Origin: Clostridia bacterium
GTDB taxonomy: Bacteria > Bacillota > Clostridia > Christensenellales > Aristaeellaceae
Direction: 5' to 3'
Assembly: GCA_017447185.1 (NCBI GenBank)
Contig: JAFSOC010000011.1
Span: 24,850-88,849 of the forward strand
DNA length: 64,000 bases
The notes beneath the pieces are model-generated. The model saw nothing but the letters and a program-made list of their open reading frames with translations, had not been told where the DNA came from and searched no databases. The position numbers were made by a program, and so were the translations under genes. Of this stretch, positions 61,543 through 64,000 are shown piece after piece (position 1 is the first letter of the stretch; each line of letters opens with the position of its first letter).

Positions 61543-61550
<8 letters not shown>

Positions 61551-61986
61551 TCAGATCACTTCCTTCCGTATTCGAAGCATCCGGAGTATTCACGCCATGC
61601 CTCCGGTCGTACATGGGCCGGAAAAGCAGCCCGATACGCGGAAACAGCAGCGGAATCACCGTTGCATAAACATTTGTATGAAACACGCCAATCAGCAGGG
61701 CGCAAAGCCCGCCCATCCCGATCAGCCGCAGCCCGGCGGACGCTTTCACCCGCTTGGCCGCTTCTTCCGGTTTTCCGGAGGATACCGCCTTGCTGACTGT
61801 GACCGCCAGCACAAGGAAGCTGCCGATAGCCGCTGCCGCGCCGCCCAGGTTGCCGAACAGCACAGACAGATTCCACTGACGGATGATCAGAAAAACTGCT
61901 TCCATCAGAACGCTCAGCAGAATCACCCAAAAAGCGATATAGCCGGTCTCTTTTTTTACTGCGGGGTCCATTTTCGACACCGGCAT
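61543..61986 (-). CDS. AtpI-like accessory protein of the ATP synthase
   Basis: A 147-residue protein with four predicted helices (IAFWVILLSVLMEAVFLIIR, AAAAIGSFLVLAVTVSKAV, LRLIGMGGLCALLIGVFHTN, and YATVIPLLFPRIGLLF), first in the ATP synthase operon. The position and topology match AtpI, which assists c-ring assembly and may handle magnesium. Sequence similarity to AtpI is loose, as usual. ATG at 61986 follows GGGAGGGAA; ATG at 61971 is an alternative. Its 3' end overlaps atpB by 8 bp. Confidence 0.8.
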
Positions 61987-62013
61987 TTCCCTCCCGAATC
62001 ACAACTATACATT

Positions 62014-62042
62014 AATATATCAAATCCGGCATTTTTTTGCAA
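62014..62042 (-). promoter_or_regulatory. sigma-A promoter of the ATP synthase operon
   Basis: Reverse strand TTGCAA (62042-62037), 17 bp, TATATT (62019-62014), about 28 bp before the first start codon. Confidence 0.75.
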
Positions 62043-62099
62043 TGTTTGCCAGCCGATTTTTCATGAAAATGCCGCATCCGGTTCCGGCCCGTCTTTTTC

Positions 62100-62128
62100 T
62101 TGCAGACTGCCGGTTTTTGTGGTAGCCT
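62100..62128 (+). promoter_or_regulatory. weak promoter of the CARF nuclease gene
   Basis: TTGCAG (62100-62105), 17 bp, TAGCCT (62123-62128). The -10 is poor, so basal expression should be low. Confidence 0.45.
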
Positions 62129-62160
62129 GCTTTCAGCATCTGAAAAAGGGAGATACCGGC

Positions 62161-63324
62161 ATGAAGACACTGATTGAGCTGTACGATCCTTCACCGATCC
62201 GGAATGTTCTGTCCACAGTGATGTTCCGTCCGGAGGAGATGATCCTCCTGTGTCCGCCCGAAAGCGTGGACCTTCAGGAGCTGAAACGCTCCCTGCACAC
62301 TTTTTTTGAGCACCTGAAATGCCAGGTGAAACTGACAATCCTTCCCGTAAGCCTGCTGGACGCAGGGAAGATTGAACGGGCGCTGCGTGAGGTCCTGGAT
62401 TCCCATCCCGACTGTGCCATCGATATCTCCGGCGGTACAGACGCCGCCCTGTTCGCCACCGGCGCCGTTTCCGGCGAGACTTCCGTTTTTACCTACAGTG
62501 CGCCGAAAAACACCTTTTACGAAATCAAAAACGCTCCTTTCGCCCGGGGTCTGCCCTGCAGTGTCCGGCTGGATGTGGCCTCCTGCCTGATGATGGTGGG
62601 TGGAACACTGCTCCCCGGCCGCGCGGACAACGCTCCCCTGCTGCATATGTTTGACCGGATTGATCACCTGTTTGACATTTACAGCAAATTCCGCAGGGAA
62701 TGGAGCGGGCAGATCAGCTATATCCAGAAAATCTCCTCCACCGAACCCGGCGCGCTGACGGCGGAAGGGCCGCTGGCAGTCCAGGCCGGCAACAATAAAA
62801 CCGTGGACGCGAATATCGGGATGTTTGAGTCGCTTGCCGGCGCCGGCCTGATCGAGGATCTGTCACTTTCGCAGGACAGGATCCGTTTCCGCTTCGCGGA
62901 CGAAAAGGTCCGCTTCTGGCTGCGGGACATCGGTTCAATCCTGGAACTGCAGGTGTTCCGCGCCTGCCACGCTGCCGGATGCTTTGACGACGTCGTGCTC
63001 AGCGCCGTGGTCAACTGGCAGGACGGAGCCCTCCGGAGGGACAGTGTGTTCAACGAGATCGACGTGATGGCCGTTCAGGGAATCCAGCCTGTTTTCATCA
63101 GCTGCAAAACCTGCGAGATCAGCACGGATGCGCTGAATGAACTGGCAATCCTGCGGGGACGTTTCGGCGGCAAGTACTCCAGGGCCATCCTTGCCACCTC
63201 CGCAGTCACAACAAAATACCGCGCACCGATGAGAAGCCGCGCGGCCCGGCTCGGCATTGAACTGATTGAGTGGGACGATCTCAGCCTGGACAAACTGGTT
63301 AGCCGCCTTCGCCGGGAGGTATGA
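62161..63324 (+). CDS. Card1/Can2-like CARF-domain nuclease (DUF1887)
   Basis: A 387-residue protein of the DUF1887 type. The N-terminal half (about 1-150) is a CARF ligand domain with the loop AIDISGGTDAALFATGA (SGGT at 90-93). A winged-helix-like part (about 205-255) follows, then a PD-(D/E)xK nuclease (about 258-385) with E262, NEIDVMAV (E299, D301) and FISCKTC (K316). The residue two before the lysine is serine rather than the glutamate of ExK. Card1 relatives are cut on by cyclic oligoadenylate from Cas10 and degrade RNA or DNA. No cas gene or CRISPR array is in the window. Ribosome site AGGGAGATACCGGC. Family call firm; activator unknown. Confidence 0.88.
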   Translation: MKTLIELYDPSPIRNVLSTVMFRPEEMILLCPPESVDLQELKRSLHTFFEHLKCQVKLTILPVSLLDAGKIERALREVLDSHPDCAIDISGGTDAALFATGAVSGETSVFTYSAPKNTFYEIKNAPFARGLPCSVRLDVASCLMMVGGTLLPGRADNAPLLHMFDRIDHLFDIYSKFRREWSGQISYIQKISSTEPGALTAEGPLAVQAGNNKTVDANIGMFESLAGAGLIEDLSLSQDRIRFRFADEKVRFWLRDIGSILELQVFRACHAAGCFDDVVLSAVVNWQDGALRRDSVFNEIDVMAVQGIQPVFISCKTCEISTDALNELAILRGRFGGKYSRAILATSAVTTKYRAPMRSRAARLGIELIEWDDLSLDKLVSRLRREV

Positions 63325-63381
63325 ACGCCTGTCCCTGCCGTCCGTGTACGGCATTCAATCACCAGACAAGGAGGTTTTTCC

Positions 63382-63564
63382 ACGGAAAAGAAAACAGAAT
63401 CTTCCAACTCCAACGTAACCAATGCGCCGATCACCCTTTCCTCCCCCCTTGGCCAGCCGAACGAAAATTTTACGGCCGGCAGGAATGCGCCGCTGTCCGG
63501 CGGTGACAAGCCGCCTGTCAAAAAGCCCAGCGACCCAACCGAGAAGCCGGGCCCCCGGGCATAA
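63382..63564 (+). CDS. possible 60-residue protein with ACG start
   Basis: A perfect AAGGAGG (63368-63374) is followed after 7 bp by ACG at 63382 and an open frame of 60 codons to TAA (63562-63564). No ATG, GTG or TTG is in this frame. The product would be hydrophilic and disordered, rich in N, T, S, P and K (TESSNSNVTNAPITLSS near the start, KPPVKKPSDPTEKPGP at the end). Either a rare ACG start is used, the start codon has mutated from ATG, or this is a leader. It lies between the CARF nuclease and the next small gene. Confidence 0.4.
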   Translation, partial: TEKKTESSNSNVTNAPITLSSPLGQPNENFTAGRNAPLSGGDKPPVKKPSDPTEKPGPRA

Positions 63565-63605
63565 GGCAGCGGATCCGAAAGTCATCATGAAAGGACGGAA
63601 AAAAG

Positions 63606-63794
63606 ATGGATCAGTTAAACATGAGGAAAAATGTCCTGAACGATCTGAACGACAGTGACGAATATATTCAGAAACTGATGCGGAAATACGGTGTTTCCTC
63701 CGTGGCCGAGCTGCGGGATCTCCTTACCAGTGAGGAAATCCTGAACATCGTACGCTCTGCCCTCGAAGGACCGCAGAACATTCCGGATCCGTAA
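63606..63794 (+). CDS. 62-residue helical protein of unknown function
   Basis: A small acidic protein with AAAGGACGG upstream of its ATG and a terminator just after its stop, which supports a real gene. It begins MDQLNMRKNVLNDLNDSDEY and continues as amphipathic helices (YIQKLMRKYGVSSVAELRDL, EILNIVRSALEG). No membrane segment or cysteine. I recognise no family. Same strand as the CARF nuclease with about 280 bp between; it could be a small partner or unrelated. Confidence 0.6.
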   Translation: MDQLNMRKNVLNDLNDSDEYIQKLMRKYGVSSVAELRDLLTSEEILNIVRSALEGPQNIPDP

Positions 63795-63810
63795 CGGACC
63801 GGCGTTGACG

Positions 63811-63844
63811 GGGCTGCTTCGCCTGCGCGGGGCAGCCCTGTTTT
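63811..63844 (+). terminator. intrinsic terminator
   Basis: GGGCTGC (63811-63817) pairs with GCAGCCC (63832-63838), then TGTTTT. Confidence 0.75.
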
Positions 63845-63881
63845 ATGTGGGAAAACAATATTGCAGCCCTGAAAAAACAGA

Positions 63882-63910
63882 TTGCGCCGGCACGGTATCT
63901 GTAATAAAAT
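63882..63910 (+). promoter_or_regulatory. sigma-A promoter of the zinc-ribbon gene
   Basis: TTGCGC (63882-63887), 17 bp, TAAAAT (63905-63910). Confidence 0.7.
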
Positions 63911-63938
63911 ATCTTCAGCAACCGAAAGGAGCGGTAAA

Positions 63939-64000
63939 ATGTCAAAACTGGTCATGGGCTACTGGGACTGCCCGATCTGCGGCAACAAGGAAATCCGCGG
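63939..64000 (+). CDS. zinc-ribbon protein, 5' end only
   Basis: Twenty codons are visible after an ATG preceded by GAAAGGAG. The start MSKLVMGYWDCPICGNKEIR has one CPICG knuckle, the first half of a zinc ribbon. Proteins opening this way are common in Clostridia as zinc-ribbon-containing hypothetical proteins. The rest is beyond the window. Confidence 0.75.
   Translation, partial: MSKLVMGYWDCPICGNKEIR

Follow-up and report, generated by a model that had tools for sequence, protein, structure and literature searches.

Known CARF nucleases and the window gene

CARF domains are usually read as sensors of cyclic oligoadenylates (cOAs) in type III CRISPR systems. In Can2, Card1 and Cdn1, such a domain is combined with a PD-(D/E)XK nuclease domain, and these type III-linked proteins are activated by cyclic tetra- or hexa-adenylate (cA4 or cA6). 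The same layout and fold occur in a protein encoded at 62161..63324 (+ strand) of the window analysed here, a stretch of 64,000 nucleotides from a Clostridia bacterium (contig JAFSOC010000011.1), whereas type III genes are undetected in the clade to which this protein belongs. On balance, the gene is probably a functional, accessory and stand-alone member of the DUF1887/CARF4 family that either left type III immunity or never took part in it, and for which a putative mechanism is proposed below.

Proteins of this kind are already known, since orphan CARF nucleases are in print (PMC7969007, PMC4012209; all literature statements refer to excerpts of open-licence PMC papers). Every CARF family includes genes unlinked to CRISPR-Cas, and some members of the VC1899 family stand in a predicted secretion cluster (PMC4012209). 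VC1899 itself, an orphan DUF1887 protein of Vibrio cholerae, lacks the cA4 contacts of Can2 and displays a weak RNase activity that is not regulated by cA4 (PMC7969007). The window protein shares with it the fold, the orphan status and the lack of these contacts, but VC1899 keeps the ExK glutamate (as IECK) and an Arg96 after strand 4, where the window clade has SxK and Asp94. The CARF domain of RtcR mostly lacks a basic residue after strand 4, like the window clade, and has a non-cOA ligand (PMC4012209, PMC7790460); as it is fused to AAA+ and helix-turn-helix domains and not to a nuclease, the likeness is one of analogy. The excerpts of PMC12669027 and PMC11229360 hold nothing on orphan Card1-like proteins. 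What the present locus adds is a clade under selection, a type III content that is not enriched among 391 genomes, acidic residues at the two CARF signature positions and a nuclease site that is probably permuted. Such a selected clade without detected type III genes makes the ligand question of orphan CARF nucleases testable with small single-gene proteins, and a CARF-nuclease match alone is insufficient for annotation as a CRISPR effector.

Architecture and conservation

The gene starts with ATG at 62161 and stops at 63322-63324, encoding 387 amino acids (aa). The reading frame is intact, and its product joins a sensor domain to a nuclease domain. The original prediction had named an SGGT loop and an NEIDV...FISCK motif in a Card1/Can2-type layout; both motifs are located in the translated protein (residues 90-93 and 298-316), and the layout is supported by a PADLOC match to CARF4-CARF_PDDEXK (6.1e-44, residues 1-386) as well as by the predicted fold. 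In both, an N-terminal CARF domain and a C-terminal PD-(D/E)XK domain span the full length, as in DUF1887/CARF4 proteins. The CARF fold is present in the monomer model, for which the nearest solved structure is that of VC1899 (PDB 1xmx), Card1, Can2 and Cdn1 having the same fold. As far as a monomer can show, the model therefore does not give one of the contradicting results named with the original prediction, a structure without a CARF dimer pocket. The CARF domain covers about residues 1-125 (62161..62535, + strand), as CARF-only chains match model residues ~1-126 by structure. The nuclease domain, residues 257-374 (62929..63282, + strand), is assigned by fold, the Pfam model Card1_endonuc (PF09002) giving 22.7 and 25.5 bits against the protein, where its cut-off is 26.4. 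A point against the reading favoured here is that 2 of the 16 PADLOC matches are to Csx1 models.

That the gene is not a chance reading frame follows from a family match in 31 of 100 genomes, window genome included, together with dN/dS ratios (non-synonymous to synonymous substitution) of 0.05-0.12 in seven close homologue pairs, none of which contains the window gene. Within the genus, 24 of 45 genomes, again with the window genome, are carriers. Identity of the CARF protein to that of the window genome does not follow that of AtpB (Spearman -0.03, 20 genomes, AtpB being one slow gene). The nearest homologue is 70% identical in alignment A1, which joins the window protein, 26 of the 29 loci of the 100-genome search, and L003 and L004; A1 omits L032, L033 and L012, the last flagged for a stop though otherwise read as an uninterrupted frame, and genome G070 gave no locus. 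Residue counts below refer either to 74 homologues, found by profile rather than at random (82 family sequences minus five duplicates and three fragments), or to the 29 rows of the window clade, which are L003, L004 and L005-L031 (L005 being the window protein, L012 included), the distant L034 (S9, V94) being left out.

Some family members are irregular. Two homologues match in two pieces, G055:C76:9420-10536 (L033) and G046:C69:7070-8193 (L032), and are perhaps decaying or assembly errors; the G169 homologue (L094) carries an internal stop; L104 and L110 lie inside much longer frames of 832 and 1420 codons and are possibly fused. A mobile-element origin was also considered and rejected, as 64 pattern matches in viral contigs yielded no confirmed case and no homologue was found in phages or plasmids.

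Search for a type III CRISPR link

The window genome, 88.66% complete, contains one PF09002 match and no match to RAMP or Cas1 models, so that the absence of CRISPR-Cas genes predicted from the window holds for the genome in these searches. RAMPs are likewise missing from all 62 genomes searched, which include the 31 CARF-positive ones (G000-G059 for the window genome, its genus and its family, and G070 and G096 from the order), while the same search is positive in 4 of 14 control genomes. A gap in the assemblies is an unlikely cause in three CARF-positive genomes, since G022 and G035 each consist of one contig and G002 of two, with completeness values of 97, 97 and 98. In a class sample of 391 genomes, the family profile matches 46, window genome included, and RAMPs occur in 52; they are found in 5 of the 46 carriers and 47 of the 345 non-carriers (Fisher p 0.82), which gives no type III enrichment among carriers in this sample. 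Among the five carriers with RAMPs, the 10 of 14 RAMP matches listed all stand off the CARF contig, the other four belonging to G196 (one) and G258 (three). Thus, homologues are not always embedded in a type III locus, the case that had been named as contradicting a CRISPR-independent gene, and the missing type III matches support the view of a solitary gene, possibly of a CRISPR-independent system. In a phylum sample, the family profile matches 12 of 398 genomes.

A single positive control is available. In G152, PF09002 finds, below cut-off, a CARF nuclease (L213) directly before a protein judged Cas10-like by eye, with RAMPs behind, and L213 retains a GGTK loop. L213 and L216 were missed by the motif pattern and read separately; L216, a nuclease-domain match without visible CARF, was not used.

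According to a rival reading, the protein is a conventional Card1/Can2 effector responding to cOA from a Cas10 that was missed or is acquired from time to time. The fold shared with Card1, Can2 and Cdn1, the incompleteness of the window genome and the plasticity that pockets of the family can have, as with Cdn1 (PMC12825302), speak for it. Further points weigh against a CRISPR-free life: metagenome-assembled genomes are incomplete, Pfam RAMP models could miss very divergent systems, and 8 of the 62 genomes contain Cas1 (7 over cut-off), among them the CARF-positive G096 and G008 (below cut-off). However, the lack of RAMPs in every CARF-positive genome, even those of one or two contigs, the lack of enrichment in the class sample and the GGTK loop of the type III-linked L213, as opposed to Asp94 in all window-clade rows, make such an effector improbable, and cOA activation from a distant Cas10, as first proposed, finds no support. 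The Pfam Cas10 palm2 model, tried as a direct probe, was rejected: it matches 16 of the 62 genomes (one over cut-off) but also 5 of the 14 controls, Escherichia coli included, and the two matches opened, in the window genome and in G025 (over cut-off), show GGDEF motifs by eye.

The CARF pocket

The CARF signature consists of S/T after strand 1 and K/R after strand 4 (Makarova 2014, PMC4012209), and the loss of K/R in two CARF families has been taken as a pointer to other ligands (PMC4012209). In Can2, Ser19 and Lys99 are cA4 contacts conserved with Can1 (PMC7969007). A profile-to-structure alignment shows that neither is kept in the window protein. Asp9 (62185..62187, + strand) stands after strand 1 where Can2 has Ser19 and VC1899 Asp9, and Asp94, ending the S90-GGT-D94 loop after strand 4 (62428..62442, + strand), takes the position of Lys99. 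In the model, D9 lies just after strand 3-7, and D94 opens the helix behind strand 85-88. By hand count on the same alignment, Thr42 and Tyr118 of Can2 coincide with or lie close to P32 and T111 of the window protein.

Position 9 is acidic in 29/29 window-clade rows and 69/74 homologues; position 94 is Asp in all 29 clade rows and an acid in 58/74. As residue 93 is Thr in 27/29 clade rows, the K/R after strand 4 is missing, as in RtcR-type sensors. The aligned Can2 and Card1 chains combine a GGTK loop with ExK, whereas the window clade combines GGTD with SxK. The altered pocket and cutting site suggest, as far as sequence goes, a response to a signal other than cOA. On the opposite side, the acidic loop is not universal in the wider family, since residue 93 or 94 is basic in 16 of the 74 homologues. 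Nor are SxK and an acidic loop always paired, since L214 and L215, two CARF nucleases outside the 74 homologues, join ISCK with a basic GGSK loop; their genomes, G178 and G229, are not among the 52 RAMP-positive class genomes. L119 of G330, a divergent family member, has the loop AGGTTA, and the RAMPs of G330 are on another contig.

Another cyclic nucleotide, from a CBASS-type cyclase or as c-di-AMP or c-di-GMP, might be the signal, as CARF domains bind nucleotides and two proteins with a visible GGDEF motif were read, one in the window genome. However, SMODS cyclases, the one cyclase family searched for in this respect, were found in none of 50 genomes, no constant cyclase neighbour accompanies the gene, and GGDEF proteins account for only 3 of 98 near neighbours (sample described below), which leaves this reading rather doubtful.

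The nuclease site

The Mg site of Cdn1 includes E274, D310, E323 and K325 (PMC12825302). In the window protein, Glu262 (62944..62946, + strand), invariant in 74/74 homologues, is the likely counterpart of E274, the pairing relying on motif order. The NEIDV motif (63052..63066, + strand) offers Glu299-x-Asp301 as a likely metal site, with N298, E299 and D301 invariant in 74/74, and Can2 and Card1 share this NExD motif and the Lys with the window protein. In FISCK (63094..63108, + strand), Ser314 replaces the glutamate of ExK ahead of Lys316, S, C and K being invariant in 74/74, whereas position 314 is Glu in all four solved proteins aligned. Canonical ExK is accordingly found in none of the 74 homologues. 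The serine noted in the original prediction is therefore real, but it is not peculiar to the window copy and fits permuted PD-(D/E)XK sites (PMC6344858).

Published permutations have the form ExD...K, as in PfoI, or PD...K...D/E, as in the CCGG family and first in Cfr10I (PMC6344858). Glu327 (63139..63141, + strand), on the next helix, may be a migrated catalytic glutamate. It is present in 61/74 homologues, and the other 13 have K327 with E324, about one helical turn earlier, so that an acid stands at 324 or 327 in 74/74. The sites of PfoI (E...ExD...K) and of CCGG-family enzymes (PD...K...D/E) resemble this arrangement (PMC6344858), but these are sequence-specific restriction enzymes without CARF, and the likeness, drawn from sequence, concerns the arrangement only. 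The nuclease site is probably a permuted PD-(D/E)XK site, in which the serine would be compatible with activity.

Three points count against the overall reading favoured here. The 13 K327/E324 rows may form one clade, the swap then being a single event. L213, the sole type III-linked CARF nuclease seen, has FSCT and also lacks ExK, so that loss of this glutamate is not tied to CRISPR-free life. A poor nuclease is also possible, since the RNase activity of VC1899 is weak in vitro. That the protein is a degenerate relic, its serine marking a loss of nuclease function, would agree with the use of the replaced glutamate in the Mg2+ site of Cdn1 (PMC12825302) and with the two-piece homologues of G046 and G055; it is nevertheless most improbable given the invariance of the other site residues, the constant acid on the next helix and the low dN/dS of the seven pairs.

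Putative mechanism

The protein would act as a homodimer, in which the CARF pocket, with its acids at the two signature positions, would not read cA4 in the manner of Can2 but might bind another ligand, possibly the end of an RNA or a different nucleotide. Binding would draw the two PD-(D/E)XK domains together, and DNA or RNA could then be nicked or cut at a permuted metal site made of E262, E299-x-D301, K316 and, substituting for the ExK glutamate, the helix acid at 324/327. Catalysis of this kind may serve defence or stress responses. As the model is a monomer, dimer and pocket are inferred, which weakens the proposal. We tentatively extend it to the whole clade, which belongs to Clostridia-like bacteria, as a form of CRISPR-free single-gene signalling, a possibility to which we give slightly less than even weight: an acid-lined CARF domain would sense a non-cOA ligand and gate a permuted nuclease, both carried by a lone gene moving between sites.

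Genomic location

The gene is flanked on the left by an atpI-like gene of the ATP synthase operon (61543..61986, - strand, Pfam below cut-off) and on the right by the start of a zinc-ribbon-like MSKLVMGYWDCPICG gene (63939..64000, + strand), cut by the contig end. The spacer between them (61987..63938) owes its extra DNA to the CARF gene and small open reading frames (ORFs): the start-to-start distance is 1953 here versus 158-278 in 21 of 29 loci of relatives (loci were obtained from the best 30 of 40 genomes with a match, and in 8 of the 29 the right-hand flank did not appear in the DNA examined). None of the 29 carries a CARF gene at this site in the DNA examined there. The gene therefore arrived at or was lost from the atpI site, and arrival is likelier, because all 21 relatives lack it there. 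The predicted position beside the ATP synthase operon is thus correct for the window genome but does not extend to the 20 other genus carriers in which both genes could be placed: the CARF gene and atpB are on different contigs in 17 and ~1 Mb apart in three (G002, G022 and G035).

Elsewhere, the gene adjoins varied genes, many of them housekeeping-looking, with surroundings common to groups of close relatives. These neighbours, and VC1899 as closest solved structure with its weak, cA4-independent RNase (PMC7969007), would suit a housekeeping or repair nuclease of low activity in which CARF is structural only. By contrast, the patchy presence within the genus, the variable location and the lack of correlation with AtpB fit an accessory gene, and the CARF signature positions are conserved within the clade; such a housekeeping role is unlikely, though slightly less doubtful than sensing of another cyclic nucleotide. 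The functional accessory gene favoured here agrees with this variable location.

Downstream frames, repeats and signals

Two tiny downstream genes and a weak promoter had also been predicted. The frames exist, but a 61-aa frame overlapping the CARF stop codon (63321..63506, + strand) has no Pfam or NCBIfam match and is probably not a gene, and a 62-aa ORF (63606..63794, + strand) was seen in the window genome only, without match in the 44 other genus genomes. A search of 174 loci gave no significant match to either of them or to a third frame, and the catalase-like look of the third downstream frame was not borne out by Pfam, which gave no match. A 60-codon open frame at 63382-63564, behind an AAGGAGG site and with ACG at the expected start, is matched by no Pfam model and has no significant counterpart in the loci searched. 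As for the promoter, a sigma-70 scan of 61900-64000 gave no site on the + strand. A terminator-like hairpin after the 62-aa ORF (63827..63841, + strand) is weak, since 2 are found in the region versus 2.7 expected in shuffles.

The one repeat found in the extra DNA, a 28-nucleotide inverted pair (62184-62211 / 63774-63801, 86% complementary), looks above chance. One arm lies in CARF codons 8-17 and the other where the 62-aa ORF ends. The same test in nine other loci gave 15-17/24 bases versus 21/24 here, so that a terminal repeat of general occurrence is not indicated.

Neighbouring genes in other loci

Near neighbours were listed for the other loci (197, the window's own excluded); 98 were hand-picked from 170, the remaining 27 coming from 7 loci with near-identical surroundings. 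PADLOC matches among the 98 fall into 28 families of at most 4 members each, and no Pfam family is shared by more than 3 of the 98. Operon partners were sought by neighbour clustering (32 and 52 loci) and rejected, as the clusters reflected gene order shared among close relatives and widespread ABC or LysR proteins. Three of 52 loci (L161, L170 and L004) have macro-domain-like genes around the CARF gene, possibly by coincidence, and Pfam Macro matches 2 of the 98 near neighbours. In the closely related L045 and L046, a gene whose product starts with MCCRYL stands directly upstream of the CARF gene and looks SRAP/YedK-like.
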